Assembly: GCF_964355755.1 (NCBI RefSeq)
Contig: NC_092675.1
Coordinates: 24,902,412 to 24,966,411, forward strand
Length of the DNA: 64,000 nt
Direction of reading: 5' to 3'
Source: Antedon mediterranea
Taxonomy: Eukaryota; Echinodermata; Crinoidea; Comatulida; Antedonidae
Shown here: positions 1,082-60,330 of the stretch, piece after piece
Numbering within the stretch: the first letter of the stretch is position 1
Layout of the letters: every line of letters begins with the position of its first letter
The notes under the pieces: generated by a model
Seen by the model: only the letters and a program-made list of their open reading frames with translations
What the model was told of the DNA's origin: nothing
Database searches by the model: none
Translations under genes and position numbers: made by a program

Positions 1082-3632
1082 CAGATATTGCTGATGTGAA
1101 TGCCTAAGAATAATATCCTCTAACGCCTTCACCCATTGACCTCTTTCATCTGAATCTCGAGCTGATAATAAATAAATAATAATATAAAATATAATTATAC
1201 TTATTGCATGAGAAAGTTATGCACTAAAGCCAATTTGATAAGTTTTAGCTATATAATCCTCACTGGCTCAAAGCACTCATCAACAATTGCTCTGGTGGTG
1301 GTAGAACTTGGTCTTTATTTTAAGGACTGGAGGTCCAGTGTACTGTACACATCTGCACTTTAAAGCCTAGGCCTAAATGCTAGTGTAGAAAGGCAAATTA
1401 GCTAAATGAAAAAGTGGGAACTAAAACTGATCTAGGCTAGTTTTGTTTTTCCACTTTTTGTATACAGTTGTCATTATTCAAAATCATGCAACGATTTAAA
1501 GCTAATTTGATGTCGGTCTGCAAAAACGTTAGTTTGTTATAATAGTGAATGTTTTTATTTGGCAAATATTGGGAGAATTCATTCATTCGTAAGAAATATC
1601 TATAGAACAAATCTTTCAATTCATGAAAATATTCTTCCTATTCAACATTTATTATTTGTATAATTACCTTGAAAATGGAACATTTTGTTGTCGCATGTGA
1701 TTGTAAATGTAGAGTCATCTTCATCATCTATACCAATCACAGCTCCCTAAAAGCAAGAAATAAAAAATCCCTAAAAAGAAAAATATCACGCTACCCTAGG
1801 CTATCCATTACAAAAGGAAATAGCTGTGCAGTTTGATAAGCATTCATACTCATAAAACTCTTTGGGTGTAAAAGAAAAGGTATTTAAAAGAAGCAACTTT
1901 GTACTGAAGAAATCAATTATCAGTAATATGAATTTTCAGCCAATTAAAAAAGAATTCAATTCAAGGTTTTTTGTATTAAGGTTGACATAATATGGTTAAA
2001 GACACCCTTAAAAATTAAAATATTTTTTTGTAAATTATACCTTCAATCTGACACAGCCTCTACGTGATCCTCTCACCATTTTTTCTTTTGACTAAAAATA
2101 AGCAAAAGAAATATTTAATAATTTATTAGTGTGGATGTAAATATCAGATGTACTACCGAAATGCACATTTTTTTCTTATATAGGCCTATTACTGTATAAC
2201 AAACAACATTTTTACATAGCAAAGTTAATGGAAAAAGCCAAAGTATCAAAATATGCTGGCCCTCGGGGAGGGATTCTCCTTCCCTCCCTTGGGGAGGATT
2301 GACTTCGCCCCAACCCCTAAAAAATAGGTTAATAGCTGAAATCCTGGCACACCACTGACTGGTATACAATACATCGTATTAAAGCACAAACATTTTTTAC
2401 GTTTCCTCGTGTATTATGACTTATATGTTCTGCATATGCGGATTGTAAGTAAGTTTTGATCGTTGACACACAAGTTACTTGTAAGTCAAGATATTGTCTA
2501 GTGTACCCAAAACGAACTAACTCAATCTTACTTTTCAACTTAAATTAATAATTGAGAGAATTTTTTTATTTTATATAGGCCTACAGTATTTACTAACATT
2601 GATATCAGCTCCTTATTTCATTTGTAAATTAAAGAAGAAATTTAAACTTTAATTATCATGTCGATGTTATGCGCGATTTGAACGATTTGCGCAATTTGAA
2701 ATTGCGCAAAAAAAATCCTTGCGCAATTTGAATTGAAACATGTGTTTCAAATTGCGCAAGCAACGTATTAAATTGCGCAAGTAATCTGCAAATTGCGCAA
2801 GGTTTTTCGACAGATTGTGAAATCATGCACACCCATATTTTTATAGTAATTTCTAAGAATGATTCAATTAATTAAACATTATCTTCATTGAAATGGTCTT
2901 ATTTATATAATAAAATACTACATTTTAAACTCCTCTGCCTAGGCCTAGCCTAGCCATGTATGGGAAAATTTACAGTTCGTTTTCAAATTGCGCAAAGGTG
3001 TCATATTGCGCAAGAACTATTTTGCGCAATTTACAAATTGTGCAGCGCAATTTAAAATTGCGCAAAGATTTTCTTGCGCAATTTGAAATTGCGCAAGTTG
3101 ATTGCGCAATTTGAAATTGCGCAAAAAAATCCTTGTGCAATTTTAAATTGCGCAAGAATTCTTTGCGCAATTTCAAATTGCGCAAGGATTTTTTTGCGCA
3201 ATTTCAAATTGCGCAAATCGTTCAAATCGCGCATAACATCGACATTAATTGAAAATTGGCAAAACTAGGAATATATAGTCATACTAAGTATAGGGGATCC
3301 GATCCCACATAATAGGCTATTAGCTAGCCTAGCTAGCTAGGCATAGTACTACTAGTACTACTGTACTTAGGCTTCACTCCAGTAGTCAGAGGGAGTAAGT
3401 AAAGTACTAATACTAGCTAGGCCTACCTAGGGCCTAACACTATAGTAGCGGCCTCTCTAGCCCAACCAACGCATAATCAATTATTATAGGCCCTACTACT
3501 CACAGTATAATATGATAAAAGGCCAGTTTCTTGGTCCAGAACAAACCATCTATATTGCCATCCTTTCATAACATTAGTCCATTTACTAAGTGGCCCCTCC
3601 ATTCCAAAACTAAGCACTGGAACCTCTGACAT
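1082..3632 (-). CDS. OSBPL9: OSBPL9 / ORP9, N-terminal PH domain (partial gene)
   Basis: Four coding exons in 5'-to-3' order: 3632-3504, 2091-2041, 1746-1668, 1161-1082. All have GT/AG borders and the frame is continuous (phases 0, 0, 1, 0). They encode about 113 residues of a pleckstrin-homology domain. Recognisable segments are [20 protein letters not shown] near the N-terminus, [24 protein letters not shown] and [15 protein letters not shown], which closely match the start of animal ORP9. ORP9 moves cholesterol and PI4P between ER and trans-Golgi; the PH domain binds Golgi PI4P. The start ATG (3630-3632) gives a short leader before the conserved EGPLSKW. The rest of the gene (FFAT motif and ORD) lies beyond the left edge. 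Intron 1 contains the iteron TIR element at 2665-3238. The gene is head-to-head with ZDHHC6. ORP9 is favoured over ORP10/11 by the [10 protein letters not shown] segment. Confidence 0.92.
2250..2357. mobile_element. Solitary DNA-transposon end fragment
   Basis: A G/C-rich run next to an end that reads CAGTGGTGTGCCAGG on the minus strand (2343-2357). It resembles the CAGTGGCGTATCCAG ends of the complete element at 51601-52870. No matching opposite end was found nearby, so this looks like a remnant inside OSBPL9 intron 1. Confidence 0.4.
2665..3238. mobile_element. Iteron-TIR DNA transposon, copy 1 (574 bp, TSD TCGA)
   Basis: The ends are inverted: TGTTATGCGCGATTTGAAC at 2665 and its complement ending at 3238. 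They are flanked by TCGA on both sides (2661-2664 and 3239-3242), a 4-bp target duplication. Most of both arms consists of palindromic units of the form TTGCGCAATTTGAAATTGCG, in both orientations, at 2690-2810 and 2983-3225. The two arms match copy 2 (33897-34775) almost base for base, but the middle section (about 2866-2970) does not. The short reading frames inside are translations of the repeats, not genes. The element lies in intron 1 of OSBPL9. The superfamily is undetermined. Confidence 0.85.
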
Positions 3633-4200: not shown

Positions 4201-5093
4201 GGTTTCGATCCAAGTCGGCCCTAAACCGTCTCGGCCAAAGTCAAGTCGGCCTCAAGTCAAGTCGGCCTCAAGTCAAGTCGGCCTCAAGTCAACTCGGCCT
4301 CAAGTCAACTCGGCCTCAAGTCAACTCGGCCTCAAGTCAACTCGGCCTCACGTCAACTCGGCCAAAAAATAATCGGTAAACTCGGCCCCGTTAAAGTATG
4401 GAACGCAAAAAGTGCAAATGAAGGGGATTGATAAAATAATATTTCTTCACAATTTTTTAACTATAAATAATTCAGACTTTTAATGAATATTAATATTTAG
4501 ACAATAATATATTTAGCAAAAAAAATAGGAATGATTTCACCAACTTTCCTTTATTAATACGTTTAATAAAATTTTAAATTGCACAATTGAAAACAATTCG
4601 TAGCTGCGCCTCCCTGCGCCTTTGGCAGCTTTTTCGATATCTACAACTGCTACGTGTTTTCACTGACCGGGGGATTCCCCTTTTTTTTAAACGCAAATCA
4701 TGGACAAAAACGATGTACAATCATTTTTTCTATGGCCAAATGGTGGAACGTAGGCCTCCGTCTTCGATTTACTAAAATGCGGTACCTGCACGTGTTTTTG
4801 TAACACGCGGGTACTTATATTCATATTGGCAATGAGTTCATTTTTTTATATGATATTATTTAATTATATTTTTTTTTTTATTCATTTTTTTTAAAGCGTG
4901 GATAGTAAGAATCATAATAATATTAAGCACTTTTTGCATTCCATACTTTATTGTGGCCGAGTTGACCGATTAGTTTTTGGCCGAGTTGACGTGAGGCCGA
5001 GTTCACTTGGGGCCGAGTTGACTTGGGGCCGACTTGACGTGGGGCCGACTTGACTTTGGCCGAGACGGTTTAGGGCCGACTTGACCTGCACCC
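4201..5093. mobile_element. Minisatellite-TIR transposon, Mutator-like (893 bp, 9-bp TSD)
   Basis: Flanked by the perfect 9-bp direct repeat GTTAGGCCT (4192-4200 and 5094-5102). Each end is a minisatellite of about 16-17 bp units (CAAGTCGGCCT and variants), inverted relative to the other: left 4212-4390, right about 4953-5083. Just inside lies an inverted block, TATGGAACGCAAAAAGTGCA at left (4398-4417) and its complement at right (about 4928-4947). The interior is AT-rich with no coding capacity. A 9-bp target duplication with long TIRs fits a non-autonomous Mutator-like element. It sits between the divergent OSBPL9 and ZDHHC6 genes. Confidence 0.8.
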
Positions 5094-5905: not shown

Positions 5906-8900
5906 ATGTGTGTTGGTCCACTGTGGAGGCTATGTCATTGGGGTCCATTTGTGACTCTCTTTCTGATTTTGTACATTACCACATTATCGGTTTATTGTGA
6001 CCTTGTTTTCTGGCCTCCGACCTTTGACAGCTATGGAAGCATTGTGAATTTTACCATTCTGTCGTCTTGGATATTTTTCATTCTCTTCAATTATTTTAAT
6101 GCTGTGTTCCGTGGACCTGGATTTGTCCCACTTGGATGGAAGCCAGTAAGTTATGTTTTGACAATACTATCTACTATATTCATACTATATTCCTTCACAT
6201 TCTTAATCATATCACAATGAATTGTGCAATGTGCTTCCAGTTTTGTAGAATGAAAAGCAAGAATTTTGCTGATCATGTTTTAGCAGTAGCACACAATGTG
6301 TGAGAGCTGGGGACAGTTTTGCACTCAAATTCGAGAAATAAAACCCTTTTGGTGGCACTAAAAACAAAATTTATTACCTTTATGATTTGTGGCAAACTTG
6401 AAGCCCCTGAAATGTAGTACAGGAAAACTATGAAATATGGTTGAAAAAATTGCAACAGAATTTATTCCACCACAATGCATTTCTATAAGGTCTCTATATG
6501 AACATACTAAAAGTCTAGAAAAATCCAGGTAGGGGAAATAGGTTTTTTTAAACAAAATGGCCGCCAATGGCGAAAATTCCTAAAAAAGGACAAAAAAACA
6601 TAAATGATAGATCTAATTACCACTTTATAACAGTTTTTACAATGGTTTATATATTTCTTTACAATTTCGAAGATCTGACCTACAATAAACACATTATTTT
6701 AAGTGCTGTTAATTAGAAAATGGCCGAAAAACAAATGTTTAAGTATCTAGATATATCCCTATTGTTATAATAATATATAAAACGCAGTCCTTCCTATGCT
6801 TAATACATAGGATTACGGTGTCTATTAATAAATCAGTTCATTTACATTTGTACTGTTATAACAATATATTACAACATTGGTGGTGCCAGTGGGGAGGGGT
6901 ATAGGGATGGGAGATCAAATGGGAAGGGTGAGGGAGTCTGTCCGTCCCCCCATCCCCTCTCCACAATTGGCTATTTTTTATGTAGACAATATGATGATAT
7001 TTCCTAATATAAAACAATACCCCATTGAGTGCTGTTTCAAGGATTTTCATTTTTAAAAGTGAGTAAAACTACCCTTTACCGGTATAATATTATCGGAACC
7101 TCTGGGTGCGCTCCCATTGATGGCCCAGCCAATTGATGCTGGCTTCGCTCTCCACCCCTCTCCCCCCCCCCCTCATCGGGAAAATCCTTGCGCCACAATC
7201 TATTACCGTATTTATTCGGATAAACGCTACATTTAGAAAAATCAAATAAATGCCCCCCTCCCCCTCCATAGGACATCATTTTGAATAACCTACGCCACCG
7301 CACCCCCTCCCCCGCTCCCATCGGACATCATTTTGAATTTATTTCCTCGAATGTACGCCCCGCCACATGCATATTATACACAATATTGTATTTTAACACA
7401 TCTCTATTTGTAATAGAATTTACTGAATGGTGTTGTATTTGTTCATATCTAAAGGGTGTATTTATTTGATTATACACGTTTCCCACATTACACCCACAAA
7501 AATATACGCCTCTCCGAATAAACTCCTCACGACGATTACACGCCCCCACTACCCTCCTTAAAAATCAACCACCAAGGGCATTTATTCAAATAAATGCGGT
7601 AATTTCACTTTCATCTTGTTAGTATCTCATCCTCCATCTATTGGTGGGGAATTGAGCATGTGCTGATGCCGTGGCATTCTTAAAAAATAGTGGAGCAGCA
7701 GTCCAAACCATATTTTCTGCAACGGCAATTCATTTTACTACAACCTTATTTATTATTATTTATAGGTACATCTAATCAACTTTAATAGTTTCTCTGGTGC
7801 TGGTAGTCAATTTGTCATCAATACTTTCCATCTCTAGTCTGTGGGTTGAAGAGTATCTCCTATCCACTGCTATACCTGGTAATAAAGACTCACGAAATGA
7901 AATTTTGCAGCAAGGGAATAGATTTGCTTTTTGCAACTTTCTCAAAGAAAAGAGGCTGTCTAAAGTCTCCATTGACTTCCCTCCATAATATATAGGTACC
8001 AATGCCAAATTCCTGATGCAATGTTTTCTTTGTTTTTTAAACTGTTTGGTTTACAGAATTTGACATACAACTCCTACTGTGATGTGATGATTTTTAAGGC
8101 CAACACCTTTTCCTAAACCAAATTTACTTACGGCCCATAATTATAGCCATTAAACACAATAGTTTACTTTGCCTTCACATAACGTAATAAACATACATGG
8201 TACATAATAAGTGTCTTGAAATGTTGCTGTTTCGGGCCAAGAGGTTTGATGTAGCAAACAGTGGGCAGTGAGATGAAGGTTTCTGAGTAGTCTAGCAGTG
8301 TGTTTGGAGTTAATGGATTAAAAGAGGGCTGCAGGAAAAGTTTAAGATTTTTTTGTTGACCAAATGATGCATTGTGTATGACTGTCTCACATAGATGATA
8401 AAATAGTATATGTGAGGGAATGTGCACTGCTTCTTTATTGATGAATATGGTTGGTTTGACCCATGTGTTCTTTCCTCTTAAATTTATATTCTGTCACGGT
8501 TGCTTCATTTATTGATTTAATACTGTATGTTCTCGATGGGGGAGCACTGTGAATGCATGTAAAGTCTGTCCTTGGTGTGAAGCTCTGTAAAAATTAGTTT
8601 GCTTTTTATACATGGAATCCAGGGATATGATACTACATCCCATCTATTTGGTATAGGAAAAGGTCTTAAAAAGTCTTAACACCTGGGCAGTAGTATGCTT
8701 ACAAACTCTGTAAAACCAAACGTCTCCAAAAAAAAAGAAACCATCGCATCAGAGGAATTGGCATTGGTAGCTATACTGTATGGAGGAGGAATACGTTCTG
8801 GGAGAAAGTAGCAAAAAGCAAAACAGCACTTGAAATAAAGTCTATTCCCCCTACAACAAATGCTGCAAAATGTCATTCCCTGCGTTTATATTACCATGGT

Positions 8901-11900
8901 ACAGCAGTGGATAGAAAGTACTCTTCAACCCACAGACTGGAGGATGGAAAGTTACAAATAGCGTGATGTGTCCATTGATGACAAATTTACCACCAGTACC
9001 ACTGTTTGTGACGAATACCACGGCATCAGCACATGCTTAATTCCTACCTATAGACAGAGGATGATAACTGGACAATGAAAATGAATGGATTAATAGATTG
9101 TACGATTGTATAATTCTATTGTTGTGACAGTACAAATGTAAATGAACTGTTTTATTAGACACCGTAGTCCTGCATTATAATGCATAGGACTACGTTGTCT
9201 ATTATTATAACCGTGGTGATATCTTGATACTTAAATGTGTGTTTTTGTTGCTAAATAGCATTTAAATTAATATGTATATTGCAGTTTAAATGTTTGACAC
9301 TAAGAAATATAAAAAGCATTATAAAAAGTCAAGTGGTAATTAGATATAAAATATATGCTTTTTGTTCATTTTTAGACATTTTTCGCCATTGGCGGCCATT
9401 TTGTTTAAAAAAACCTATTTCCCCTACCTGGATTTTTCTAGACTTTTAGTATGTTCATATAGGGACCTTATAGAAATGCATTGTGGTGAAAAAAATTCTG
9501 TTGCAATTTTTTCAACCTTTTACTGATTCTGAGCATATCTTTCCTGTACTAATGGTAAATTGTAACTGTACTGTACTACAAATCAAAGAGCTACATAGGC
9601 AGGGTAAAAAATCAAACAAGTTAAATCTGCCTCAATAAAAGTTTATTAACACAACATGTTTCGGGCATAGCCCATCATCAGTATATCATATTTTCAAATG
9701 GTTGAGTGTTTTTACAATTCCCAAATCTTTATTATTAGCTATATGTGTTGCCTGAATATTTACATCAAACTAATTCATACATTTTAATAGGAAAAGGACG
9801 AGGATTGTCAATATCTTCAGTACTGTCATTCGTGTAAGAGTTACAAATCACCTAGGTCCCATCATTGTAGGCATTGTAAAAGGTAAAAATAAGGTGCATT
9901 TTTTTGCTATCAAAGTAGAAACCATTGCAAGGCAATCTATCAACAGGATGCTGAGCTCCGGAGATCAAAGGGTTTATCTGTGGCTGCGACACAATCAGTT
10001 TCTCACCCTAAACTGTTTAAATGATTTTCGCAGAGAATATGTACCTACTACAGTACTGTTGGTATTTGTCGCAGCCACACATAAGATCAAAGGACTATTG
10101 GGCCCTGATGTGAGATTGCCTTATTTCAATTATTTCATTAATAGTGTTTTGCTGTTCATTAACTGCATTATTGGGGCATGCCATTTTGTTAGAAGTATTA
10201 CATTATAATGTACTTGCAACATACCGCAGCTGGATGCTCATCCGCCTGCTTATAATAAATATTTGGAATTCGGGGTTTAAAATGTCATTCATTTGTCTTT
10301 TGTTTATTTTTTATTTTAATCTGATTTCTATTTTTAACCAAGAATAAAAACGAATACTCAGTTGTTCTGTTTCATTGGATTCTTTTATTAATATAAATAT
10401 ATTTATAATTAATTATTATTATGTGTATGAAATAAACTCATTAATGGAATGTATCTGTAATTTGTAGATGTGTAATAAAGATGGACCATCACTGTCCTTG
10501 GATTAACACTTGCTGTGGCCACCTAAACCATTCTAGTTTTACATATTTCCTATTTTTTGCTCCGCTTGGGTGCATGCATGGAGCGGCTGTACTTATATTA
10601 ACTGTCTACCATCAAGTTTATAAGGTAATTAATCATTTTTATTGTATATTTTAGTTTACAATAGATGACAATCATCAATTAATTTGGTTTTATACCCTAT
10701 ATGAACTATGGAATTACAATATACTGTTGCTTAGTATTTATATCGCTTTCTATTTGACTATTTCCCTCAAGTTGATAGAAACATCATTTTATAAAATTGG
10801 TTTGTTGATATTTTTCAGACCTTACATTACCCTAGGCATCGCTATCCTCATCTATATAAACCTACATTGGTTCAGTATGATGTCATTCACCTTATATTAA
10901 CATTCCTGGCGATTGGCTTTGCCATTGGTGTTGTGATAGCAGTAGGATTTTTATTTTTTATTCAAGTAAGTTTTGGTTTTCTGATCAAAATCTACAACTA
11001 TCAAACTAGTTAGACAAAAAAAAAGATAATATCATCATGTCCATATACAGTATGGGCACATCATGTTTTGTTGCATAGAGTTTAGAGTTATATTGTTTTG
11101 TATTTAAAGTTAAAAACAGAAGGATTATGTACAGGGTTAATTTGTCTTAAAATTGGAATTATCAAAAAAAGTTATTTCATAAGATTTTTTTTTAATAAGG
11201 TAATGTTTTAATATTAGTGAAGAAAAGTCTTTTGTGTTTTTTTTTTAGATGAAAGTTATAATAAAAAATGAAACTGGAATTGAGGCATGGATTAAAGCAA
11301 AGGTAAGAAGAAGTGGTTGAGATGAACATCTTTTCAATTGTACTTGAGTAGCAGGGACACAGTGTTAGAAACCAACATTGGTTTCTACACAGGCTTCTAA
11401 TAACTTTTTCACTTGTCATATTTTGATCTCCAGATTTATTAAGCATTTTCATTCACATATTCACGAACCTTGCAAAATCTGTTGGGAAAATACAGTTGGG
11501 GCGCTTTTTGACTATTATGCCTGTACTTTGATTGGTCAGTAAACACAAGACTGGTGGAACATCTCTGAACAAAAATGAGGCCCCTCATTATTGTGTTTTT
11601 TCCAAAAAAAACAAACCTGCTTATAACTAACAAGAAAAAAAATTAATATAAAATAAATATTTTTAGGCTGTCTATCGAAAAAGAGATGATGAATTTATTT
11701 ATCCATACCACTTGGGTTGGCGAGAAAATATGAGACAGGTGTTTACCTGGAGTGGAAAACCTAAATCAGATGGAATCATTTGGCCGGTAGCTGAAGGTTG
11801 CAATCAATACACACTGACGGTAATTCAGTATATTACAGTATATTAGATTAATATTAGTTCAGAGTTCATTCCAATTGTACAGCTTGTATAATACTGTAAA

Positions 11901-33504: not shown

Positions 33505-33896
33505 ATTCAATTAGAGTCTATCAGGTATAGGCCTAACAAAAAATGAAACATTATGTAATTCATATGTAAAAAAAAATCATCTACTGTCATGCACTGTTTT
33601 ATGTATTTTTCTTTGTTGTTTTTAATTATACCAAGCAAAAAGGAATTTCCATTTTAAAGTGGAGCAATCAAATTTGTTGAATATTGAACAGCACCAGAAA
33701 AGTACAGTACAAACTTACAGATCATGAGAAACGAGCCTGTGGATATTATGGATTTATATAGGGATTCCTCTTTTACAATAACAACAGAATAACAGACAGC
33801 TGATAAAATAATTGAATTAAATCACTAATACAAACAAAACAATTGATATAAAACTGCTGCTAAACACAAACGATTTGAAAAGGCATGTAGTGAACA

Positions 33897-34775
33897 TGTT
33901 ATGCGCGATTTGAACGATTTGCGCAATTTGAAATTGCGCAAAAAAAATCCTTGCGCAATTTGAATTGAAACATGTGTTTCAAATTGCGCAAGCAACGTAT
34001 TAAATTGCGCAAGTAATCTGCAAATTGCGCAAGGTTTTTCGACAGATTGTGAAATCATGCACACCCATATTTTTATAGTAATTTCTAAGAATGATTCAAA
34101 ATTAAAGATAAATATCGCATTTCCTTATTTTAGTAGTGCAAATATTGTTATAAGTTAGCATACCGTCGAAGAACCGACGAAGGAAAACGAAGCGGTGGTG
34201 TTCCACCAGGCGGGCGTGGCGCGGGCGGCCGGCTATACTACTCTAGCCTAGCTAGGGTCTGGACTACTGATACTGACTAGGTTACATGGCCTAGCTTAAA
34301 CTAATATTAAAAAGTAAATTTTTACATTTATTTTGATTTATTTCAAGTTACAGTGATAATATTATTTAATTGTAATAATAAATGTTATGTATTTATTATA
34401 CACATGTTATCTTCGCATTTATTATGTTTTATTTTGAATTATTTAGTTTCCAATAAATTATTATAATACCGATTGTCTGGTAGAATTTTGTTGCGCAATT
34501 TGAAAATTTACAGTTCGTTTTCAAATTGCGCAAAGGTGTCATTTTGCGCAAGAACTATCTTGCGCAATTTACAAATTGTGCAGCGCAATTTAAAATTGCG
34601 CAAAGATTTTCTTGCGCAATTTGAAATTGCGCAAGTTGATTGCGCAATTTGAAATTGCGCAAAAAATCCTTGCGCAATTTTAAATTGCGCAAGAATTCTT
34701 TGCGCAATTTCAAATTGCGCAAGGATTTTTTTGCGCAATTTCAAATTGCGCAAATCGTTCAAATCGCGCATAACA
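33897..34775. mobile_element. Iteron-TIR DNA transposon, copy 2 (879 bp, TSD AACA)
   Basis: Same ends as copy 1 (TGTTATGCGCGATTTGAAC at 33897, complement ending at 34775), flanked by AACA at 33893-33896 and 34776-34779. The outer arms (33897-34097 and about 34503-34775) match copy 1 closely, including non-iteron sequence such as ACAGATTGTGAAATCATGCA. The interior of about 400 bp (34099-34500) is unrelated to copy 1. It contains a CpG-rich patch (GGCGGGCGTGGCGCGGGCGG near 34210) and CTAG-rich words. The element lies about 390 bp upstream of the SASS6 ATG, between SASS6 and TMEM259, so its interior may contain promoter sequence. Confidence 0.85.
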
Positions 34776-44504
<9,729 letters not shown>

Positions 44505-49309: not shown

Positions 49310-51046
49310 GGGTGTGTAGAAAGCGACGACCTCGAATTGGACGACCCCAACGACCCGGGCGACCTCGAATTGAACGACCTCGAATTGAACGACCCATAAC
49401 ACGAAACCGACGACCCCTATAGCCTAGCCTAGGCCTAAGTGTGGTATAACATCCCGAAGTCGAACATAGCCAAAGATCTTTAAACTATACCTTATTATAT
49501 AATACTCGCAAGCAAGCAATTGATTGAAAAAATACAGAAATATCGCCATTTGATACTGATTGTGTCGACACGAACAAACGAAAAGATATGGAACGCCAAG
49601 AGTGCATCATTAAAAACTGCATTTGACATATTAAAAATAAATTAAAAAGAAATAAATATTATACAATACATGGTTAAACCATAGACGTATAATTACATCT
49701 AGTCTTCTTATAACGAACACTATAGGCCTACCAAGCAGCGTAACATGTCCATGGGGGGATATGACCGGTTGGGCCGCCGACAAGTTGAGCCGCCGGTAAT
49801 TTCTATGAAACGGCCAGTGCGTCTTTTACGACATTTCGCGTAGTGATAGAGTGGTGTCCTAGTAGGCCCTACATAAGTTCATGGTCTTTAGGTTTATTGT
49901 GTCATGAAAATAAATAATAATTACATACTACAATTTTGTTGGTTTGAAACAGCAAAGGAAAGTAGTCATATTTAATAATCTAATTGTTTTTAATCTTTCA
50001 AGGTAAAAATGCAGTGCACTCCATAATATTTTTCTCGCGTGTATACCACGTAAAATCACGTTGTCTCTCAGGACTAATAGAGTATTGATATTCTTCGAAT
50101 GAGGTTAAATAATTATTATTTTTTATTTACTATCTTTTAATATCATATTTTATTGAATTTTACAATGTTAATACACAAAATATTTTACTAAAGAACGGTG
50201 ATTTTATGCAATTATTTTACTTCAACTGCCGCCTGAGGGGGCAACATGTTTACGTGATTTTTGGCTAAAAACGATCATTTTCGGTCATGTTTTAGGCCTT
50301 ATATTTTGGAATCTACAAGTCAGATATTCATAATTATTACTCTTTAATTATAATATTTAATAATATATACTAAAAACCGTGATATATAAACTTTGGAATA
50401 TACATCGTTATATCTAATAATTAATATAAATAGAACTTCTATTAAATAGAAACGAGCACCGGCGAAAGTAAGCATTTGGCGTTTCATAGAAAATAACGTT
50501 TTTCTGGCGGCGCCTCAACTTGTCGGCGGCTCAACTTGGCCTAATTCCTGCATGGGGAGGGCCATAAGAAAGCTTTACATTTCACAGTATGCATCGGTCA
50601 AACCATGGAGGTATAAAAATATGTTTATACCTCCATGGTCAAACCATGGAGCTGGTCAAACCTTACCCGCCGCTGTAAAAGGGGCCTGGTTTGTCATGTT
50701 TATGATATTTCGTGTGCTAATCGAGTCGAATGCAGTTTTAATGATGCACTCTTGGCGTTCCATATCTGTTCGTTTGTTCGTGTCGACACATTCAGTATCA
50801 AATGGCGATATTTCTGTATTTTTTCAATCAATTGCTTGCTTGCGAGTATTATATAAGGTATGGTTTAAAGATCTTTGGTTATGTTCGGCTTTGGGATGTT
50901 ATACCATACTTAGGCCTAGGCTAGGCTAGGCTATTATAGGGGTCGTCGGTTTCGTGTTATGGGTCGTCCAATTCTAGGTCGTCCAATTCGAGGTCGCCCG
51001 GGTCGTTGGGGTCGTCCAATTCGAGGTCGTCGCTTTCTACACACCC
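49310..51046. mobile_element. Minisatellite-TIR transposon inserted in the LINE (1737 bp, 10-bp TSD)
   Basis: Perfect 10-bp target duplication AGGGAGCCAA (49300-49309 and 51047-51056). TIRs of about 310 bp start GGGTGTGTAGAAAGCGACGA. They contain an array of about 15-bp units (CGAATTGGACGACCT) and then unique sequence (TTGATTGAAAAAATACAGAA) up to a TATGGAACGCCAAGAGTGCA block (49587-49606; complement about 50744-50763). The long TIRs and the 9-10-bp duplication are Mutator-like. The interior includes a nested element (49759-50550). No transposase is visible. Confidence 0.85.
49759..50550. mobile_element. Nested element inside the 49310-51046 transposon
   Basis: Flanked by CATGGGGGG (49750-49758) and CATGGGGAG (50551-50559), a probable 9-bp duplication with one mismatch. 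Inverted ends share GCCGCCGACAAGTTGAG and TTTCTATGAAACG. The part at about 50030-50400 is homologous to about 52312-52700 in the CAGTGGCG element. Non-coding. Confidence 0.6.
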
Positions 51047-54380: not shown

Positions 54381-54480
54381 AGTCAAATTCCTAAGTACAT
54401 TTTATATTTTTGAGGTCTTTGAAAGTAGAAATAACAATAGGAAAAAGAGTCTAATAAATCTAAAATGTTCAATATCATAA

Positions 54481-54888
54481 TTAATAACTAATTATACTGT
54501 TGTATTTTATTATGATCAAAGGCTTTAACCCGTCTCAGCCAAACTCAAGTCGACCCCAAGTCAACTCTCCCTCAAATCAATTCGACCGCAGGTCAACTTG
54601 GCCTCACGTCAACTAGGTTACGTTAAAGTATGAAACGTTACTATTATTCATCTCTGTAACATTCGTACTTCGTCTCTATTATTTTCCTCTGATTTCGGTT
54701 GAAGAAAATAATTTATTTATTAATTAACATTTGTTTGTTATATCAGTCCTATTTATTTGCACTTTTTGCGTTCCATATTTTAATTAGTTTTTGGCTGAGT
54801 TGACGTGGGGCCGAGTTGAGTTTGGCTGAGACGGGTTAAAGCCTTTGATCATAATAAAATACAACAGTATAATTAGTTATTAATATAA
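54481..54888. repeat. Palindrome with perfect 67-bp arms around a minisatellite-TIR remnant
   Basis: Perfect inverted arms, 54481-54547 and about 54822-54888. The outer part is unrelated to the 4201-5093 element. The inner part is its GTCTCAGCCAAACTCAAGTC-type terminus. Inside lie diverged CAAGTCGGCC units and a GCACTTTTTGCGTTCCATAT block (about 54757-54776). Confidence 0.75.
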
Positions 54889-59519: not shown

Positions 59520-60150
59520 TTGGTGTTTGATGTCTAGGGTAATTTTTGTATTAATATTTGAACTTTTTAATCTTTCTCGTTGGTTCTATTGTTGTAAATT
59601 TGTATTTTATTGTTGGATGATTATGTTTTGTTTTGGAGACCCACTTGATAGTTTGGTTTAGTTCACTTTTGGGAATCCTGTCTGTCTATATTGTTTTCTT
59701 TTATATCTGAGAAAAAATAAATAAAATGAAATGAAATGTTTTTATTTTAAAAAGAGCTTTGTGTAAAATGAATTTCCATACCATAGACCAACAATAATTA
59801 TAGTTCATGAAATACTGAAATATTTAATTTGTTATGGCCATTTATATACTAATTATGTGCATTGTAATTTAAATAACGATATAATAATAGACCAGCATGA
59901 CACATTTAATGTGTTATTTTAATTTTATTTACACGAATGTAGTAGTACAGTGTTTCAAACATGTTCATTTTAACAGAAAATGGGATTAAAACTCTTATTT
60001 AAATGGGAAATACGGTACCTATCTTAGTATTTTTTAAACTAGATAGTCAATTCATGTAAATGTGTGGTATTTAGTTCACATTCAAATGTTAATTGAATTA
60101 AAGTTAAAGGTGATTAGATAATTTATAATTACATGTTGCCGTGTGATTCT
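59520..60150. other. METTL27 3' UTR and intergenic sequence
   Basis: Contains the probable METTL27 polyadenylation region (about 59707-59740, with an ATGAA-type simple tail that could instead mark a LINE 3' end). The rest is AT-rich with no gene. Confidence 0.4.
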
Positions 60151-60152
60151 AA

Positions 60153-60330
60153 GGTTGCAGGTCAACTCAGCCCTAAACCGTCTCGGCCAAAGTCAAGTCG
60201 GCCCCTAGTTAAGTCGGTCCCAAGTCGTGTCGGCCCCACGTCAAGTCGGCCACACGTCAACTCGGCCTCAAAAGTCAACTCGGCCTCACGTCAACTCGCC
60301 CAAAAACTAACTGGTCAACTCGGACCCAAT
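60153..60330. mobile_element. Solo end of the minisatellite-TIR transposon
   Basis: Starts GGTTGCAGGTCAACTCAGCC and CTAAACCGTCTCGGCC, then diverged CAAGTCGGCC units, matching one end of the 4201-5093 element. It stops at about 60330 with no TATGGAACGC block, interior or opposite end. Confidence 0.75.

Follow-up and report, generated by a model that had tools for sequence, protein, structure and literature searches.

It is an open question why the arms of certain transposons are filled with repeats, and the element described here represents a compact case. The analysed window is a stretch of 64,000 nucleotides from the genome of the crinoid Antedon mediterranea (contig NC_092675.1, positions 24,902,412 to 24,966,411). 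In the initial annotation, an element with terminal inverted repeats (TIRs) and TCGA on both sides had been placed at 2665..3238; its ends proved to be exact at 2665 and 3238 and are inverted relative to each other. A second copy in the window, hundreds of copies in the genome and a resemblance of the element's tip to the repeat unit were observed beyond that annotation. The element quite probably represents a young non-autonomous cut-and-paste family with foldback-type arms, moved in trans, as it seems, by a Ginger2-type DDE transposase. Features of both copies are as follows, with the strand given where one applies:

2661..2664: left target-site duplication (TSD) of copy 1, TCGA
2665..3238: copy 1, 574 bp, non-coding, corresponding to the common 799-bp family form minus 225 bp of the middle
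2665..2714, plus strand: left TIR of copy 1, 50 bp, perfect
2669..2682, plus strand: terminal motif ATGCGCGATTTGAA of copy 1, 12/14 match to the half-unit TTGCGCAATTTGAA
2687..2800: left-arm array of copy 1, six exact TTGCGCAA cores
2868..2963: interior of copy 1, 93/96 bp matching the right half of the genome-copy middle (match in 38/38)
2988..3216: right-arm array of copy 1, 13 exact cores and one TTGTGCAA, four full 23-bp palindromes
3189..3238, minus strand: right TIR of copy 1, 50 bp, perfect
3239..3242: right TSD of copy 1, TCGA
33893..33896: left TSD of copy 2, AACA
33897..34775: copy 2, 879 bp
33919..34032: left-arm array of copy 2, six exact cores
34100..34313: interior of copy 2, left part, matching the genome-copy middle (match in 38/38)
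34314..34490: interior of copy 2, right part, outside the family match and resembling the right interior of subfamily L090
34491..34753: right-arm array of copy 2, 15 exact cores, five full 23-bp palindromes
34776..34779: right TSD of copy 2, AACA

The termini of copy 1 read TGTTATGCGCGATTTGAAC, and their inverted identity is perfect over 50 bp, extending to approximately 68 bp with one indel in an A-run. Foldback elements are expected to have inverted repeats of several hundred bp, and a strict TIR of 50-68 bp is short by this measure; the palindromic arms pair further inward. The ATG/CAT symmetry beyond TCGA of copy 1 belongs to the target; copy 2 shows AGTG/CACT at this place, and its TSD is non-palindromic. 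An extension of the element end to ATGTCGATG was also considered, but copy 2 and the copies elsewhere in the genome rule it out. Comparison of the left arms of both copies revealed 0 differences in 203 columns before the first difference, the local alignment continuing to 216 columns at 98.6% identity, and the right arms showed four differences in 275 columns (three substitutions and one A-run indel). The interior of copy 2 matches the family over its first 214 bp, and the 177 bp that follow fall outside this match. The possibility that the interiors of copies 1 and 2 are unrelated was discarded in favour of deletion and partial exchange within one family.

No open reading frame of at least 80 aa was found inside copy 1, and Pfam scanning of all 41 stop-to-stop frames of at least 90 aa in the window yielded no transposase. 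Rfam gave 0 matches in the window, and a protein search with a repeat-derived 112-aa frame of copy 2 returned two candidates, none of them at E 0.001. Furthermore, viral contigs gave 0 matches to the tip (30 bases) and 0 to the unit (23 bases), and 0 matches were likewise obtained for the unit against prokaryotic genome contigs.

Exons of an oxysterol-binding-protein-related (ORP11-like) gene were located around copy 1 on the minus strand (1670-3600); the copy resides in an intron of this gene, and ORP11 is the best match of the PH-domain exons once these are joined (2d9x, E 2.6e-15). Exons of a membralin gene are located on the plus strand at 36031-44504, the corresponding frame being closest to Apostichopus japonicus (61% over 22%). 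Among the best 120 of 7915 hits, the nearest to a reverse-transcriptase frame of the window comes from Antedon mediterranea (75% over 52%); both affinities agree with an echinoderm host. Moreover, a second inverted-arm family, whose arms consist of 16-bp units of the CTCGGCCTCAAGTCAA type, is present at 4211-5088, 54480-54884 and 60149-60330, with paired arms in the first two cases; TTAGGCCT flanks 4211-5088 on both sides, possibly as an 8-bp duplication, in an AGGCCT-rich region. Further inverted repeats were observed at 49310-51046 (arms of about 320 bp, 93% identical) and 6439-9517 (arms of about 400 bp, 81% identical).

Both arms of the element had been described as largely made of inverted and direct copies of one unit, and this description holds: with up to three mismatches, the unit TTGCGCAATTTSAAATTGCGCAA occurs 14 times in the window, seven times in each copy, versus 0 occurrences in each of 100 dinucleotide shuffles. 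Exact TTGCGCAA cores number 19 in copy 1, 21 in copy 2 and one in the remaining 62,547 bases, the corresponding values for cores with one mismatch being one, none and 19. Many of the cores are paired as TTGCGCAATTTNAAATTGCGCAA and have TTTNAAA in common. Adjacent cores are spaced 15-16 bp apart in 9/18 cases in copy 1 and 11/20 in copy 2, and full 23-bp palindromes total five and six, respectively. The tip ATGCGCGATTTGAA agrees with the half-unit at 12 of 14 positions; when the 22-base tip was shuffled 200000 times, this value was reached in 22 cases, the half-unit having been picked after the sequence was seen. Elsewhere in the window, a match at this level was found at one place (9 of 62430 overlapping 22-mers). 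Tip and unit both contain ATTTGAA. From the match between tip and unit, we infer that a protein, either a transposase or a host factor, may bind the units.

The genome searched comprises 354.4 Mb on 18 contigs. The 19-base tip, with at most one mismatch, was found at 371 forward and 361 reverse places, and the same pattern read backwards, serving as control, gave 0 and 0. In the genome similarity search, 40 of 436 candidates were scored, and all 39 places besides copy 1 were retrieved. The 4-bp TSD initially proposed was confirmed by these copies: both tips (up to three mismatches each) are present in 38/39, and among these 38 the TSD is exact over 4 bp in 31, exact over 5 bp in three (L011, L035, L047) and affected by one mismatch in four. 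In a separate set of 14 tip pairs from tip-search loci, two of which are common to the 38-copy set, ten pairs carry an exact 4-bp TSD; two of the other four match over 5 bp read from the flanks and two do not. The 38 copies, picked by best score, are 98.6-100% identical to the majority sequence (median 99.75%), and 25 of them are distinct. The most frequent copy length is 799 bp (15/38), and a typical copy (L012) contains no stop-to-stop frame longer than 77 aa. Fixed TGTTATGCGCG ends, direct duplications of 4 bp (rarely 5 bp) and arms of TTGCGCAATTTNAAATTGCGCAA are the constants of the family; the middle varies between copies, as seen from the deletion in copy 1 and the different right middle of copy 2. 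The element is a young, non-coding transposon family with a few hundred copies that was recently active. It is not a dispersed satellite, the option under which the annotation would have failed, since the insertions are dispersed and each has its separate duplication. Short, older-looking elements at three further loci (L080, L086, L096) carry the shared tip, with A as the next base, and contain one or two exact cores; they perhaps represent a sister subfamily without the array.

Target sites were deduced from the 31 exact 4-bp cases. The TSD is preceded by a purine and followed by a pyrimidine (R-NNNN-Y) in 28/31; T two bases before it occurs in 26/31 and A two bases after it in 27/31. The commonest TSD is TATA (7/31), and all seven of these sites read RTATAY. 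Both window TSDs fit R and Y, not TATA; it is the larger genome sample that establishes the RTATAY preference, beyond what the two window copies showed. TSDs of the Ginger1 type (CCGG or CCGT/ACGG) are represented by 0/2 window TSDs and none among the 38 genome copies, and the same counts apply to TTAA, the rule given for Kolobok and piggyBac in the part of PMC9587614 relevant here.

One alternative is that the palindromes bind nothing at all and arose as by-products when slippage and foldback repair took place, their uniformity being due to the young age of the family. We regard this as improbable. Two-unit blocks including their spacer are inverted copies of one another (54 nt at 96% and 52 nt at 92%), so the array owes some of its uniformity to duplication, and the spacers of one pair agree to 88% in the better orientation. 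As judged from these repeats, passive block duplication explains much of the array, which, together with the spacers being taken in by duplications and inversions, is in line with a by-product. The very stable hairpins (DNA fold of -185.1 kcal/mol, z -22, 0/100 shuffles) point in the same direction. On the other hand, the 12/14 agreement between tip and half-unit speaks against a by-product, as do several spacers that vary in length and sequence next to cores that remain exact. Across the 38 copies, core cells differing from the majority amount to 3/6072 (all at CpG) versus 25/8613 for other arm cells, corresponding to p 7.5e-4 in a cell count that ignores shared descent. Counting separate changes is the fairer test because the copies share descent; it gives three changes at 160 core sites versus ten at the 227 remaining arm sites (p 0.25, Fisher test), a non-significant result compatible with a by-product. 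Between the window copies, one of three substitutions falls in a core. These comparisons are at most suggestive of constraint on the cores among copies. The block duplications and the change-level test nevertheless weaken the preferred reading of the units as binding sites and strengthen the by-product alternative.

The initial annotation had also called for a full-length copy encoding a transposase; a search for such a copy was negative at the tip places examined. These places were the first 100 of 732, all on one contig. Twelve unpaired tips among them were followed inward for about 7 kb, and for 11/12 a second tip (up to four mismatches) was detected within 1.6 kb. For the twelfth (L081), no second tip at up to four mismatches was found within about 7 kb. 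At this locus, a right tip with one unit occupies 6900-6937; an array does not precede it, and a left tip (up to four mismatches) is absent from the 7 kb upstream. The next 6.9 kb beyond (L091) contain five weak tip matches at up to five mismatches and no cores. No transposase was found at any of the 14 tips with another 20th base, one of which was viewed only within the 3-kb locus L055. Of the frames at these tips, one each was scanned at L094, giving a reverse-transcriptase match below the cut-off, and at L095, giving none. Among the 150 of 998 candidates scored for the integrase zinc-finger family, only that of L090 lies less than 5 kb from the listed tips according to a by-eye comparison. 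Among the matches listed for the tip places examined, neither an H2C2 and DDE transposase nor an autonomous copy was identified.

The locus L090 is a 6.9-kb tip-to-tip span consisting of an element copy with an LTR retrotransposon nested inside. The latter (L090:477-6511, genome contig C10) has identical 443-bp LTRs, encodes the integrase before the reverse transcriptase and is flanked by CTAT. This structure bears on the idea that the element itself is the solo LTR of a retrotransposon, for which the TGT...ACA ends and the duplications of 4-5 bp could be quoted. However, the inverted ends of 50-68 bp and the inverted arrays do not fit, LTRs being described in the corresponding section of PMC9587614 as having no TIRs beyond TG..CA, and the only 6.9-kb tip-to-tip span holds a retrotransposon whose LTRs are its own and different. 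A solo LTR is therefore extremely improbable; the copies found across the genome add weight to the transposon reading at the expense of this explanation and of that involving host C/EBP sites discussed below.

Among DNA transposons, the closest agreement was noted with Ginger2, for which the main text of PMC2836005 gives TGTNR ends, a 4-bp TSD (5 bp in TDD-4/5), TIRs of approximately 50-180 bp and an RTATAY target. The TGTTA termini of the element fit TGTNR, its 4-bp TSD and the occasional 5-bp TSD correspond to those of Ginger2 and its members TDD-4 and TDD-5, and TIR length and RTATAY target fit as well. In contrast to Ginger2, the element is devoid of a transposase in the places examined, and its arms are palindrome arrays, whereas the words 'palindrom' and 'foldback' do not occur in the main text of the Ginger paper (PMC2836005). 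Since ends, TSD length, TIR length and target fit but the transposase was not found, the element is termed 'Ginger2-like' and is not assigned to Ginger2. Its classification goes no further than a presumably new family of TIR elements that are foldback-like and non-autonomous; among the titles and abstract openings covered in the literature, no description of the element was found.

Repeat-filled arms are known from other transposons. For Galileo, a member of the P superfamily in Drosophila, the THAP domain of the transposase was reported to bind repeats inside the TIRs (PMC3688188, relevant part). Galileo and the element share inverted arms that are internally repetitive, and they differ in that Galileo TIRs exceed 1 kb and belong to a P-type transposase. 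TSDs of Galileo are also longer than the 4 bp of the element. Tetris, as far as described in PMC4079207, is a non-coding foldback with repeat arms and a variable middle, and a sea urchin foldback is mentioned in the same paper. The element resembles Tetris and other foldbacks in being non-coding and in having repeat-built arms and a variable middle, but Tetris, according to that description, features 220-bp units and TSDs of 8-10 bp as opposed to a 23-bp palindrome and a 4-bp TSD here. Within the echinoderms, the TU elements of sea urchin are foldbacks with short units in their arms, like the element. They differ from it in their direct-repeat units and 8-bp TSDs.

By analogy with Galileo, the units are best read as multiplied transposase-binding sites in foldback-type arms. 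The transposase, probably of Ginger2 type, would be supplied in trans, and its DNA-binding domain would read the half-unit (A/T)TGCGC(A/G)ATTTGAA, which is present once per tip and many times inward. Several transposase molecules could then load per arm and promote pairing of the ends; many sites would raise occupancy, and specificity could be gained from a short motif. The array presumably grew by duplication and inversion of blocks, and the middles may have been altered by deletion and by exchange between subfamilies.

A different user of the same units could be a host bZIP protein of the C/EBP type; the array would then be a cluster of C/EBP sites that moves with the element and serves as an enhancer or promoter. 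This explanation is considered unlikely, more so than a passive origin of the palindromes. TTGCGCAA is the core of ATTGCGCAAT, which was used in repeats as a C/EBP reporter according to the relevant part of PMC3569692, and a C/EBP reporter primer in the corresponding section of PMC8257693 also contains TTGCGCAA. The window copies offer 19 and 21 such cores, and copy 1 is situated between exons of the ORP-like gene. However, the perfect 10-bp ATTGCGCAAT is present only once per window copy (1/19 and 1/21 cores), so an array of full sites does not exist; TTTNAAA, common to paired cores, goes beyond a C/EBP site, and the tip has the unit's ATTTGAA but is a poor C/EBP site. A further occurrence of ATTGCGCAAT, in PMC12489913, was set aside, being a sequencing tag in the part concerned. 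Both functions could also be combined in a Ginger2-type transposon with evolved foldback arms, in which an oligomeric integrase-like transposase acts on tip-derived palindromic arrays that additionally serve as a mobile C/EBP-responsive intronic enhancer; this combination likewise appears doubtful.

With a short, sharply delimited unit that can be recognised at the tip, and with hundreds of tips in the genome, the family makes binding and deletion tests simple. If neither the Ginger2 nor the C/EBP reading holds, the element merely adds another family to the small transposons. Should the core be used by C/EBP proteins of the host, a strong site cluster would be spread with every insertion, and if the Ginger2 assignment is true, foldback arms would extend to integrase-like transposons.
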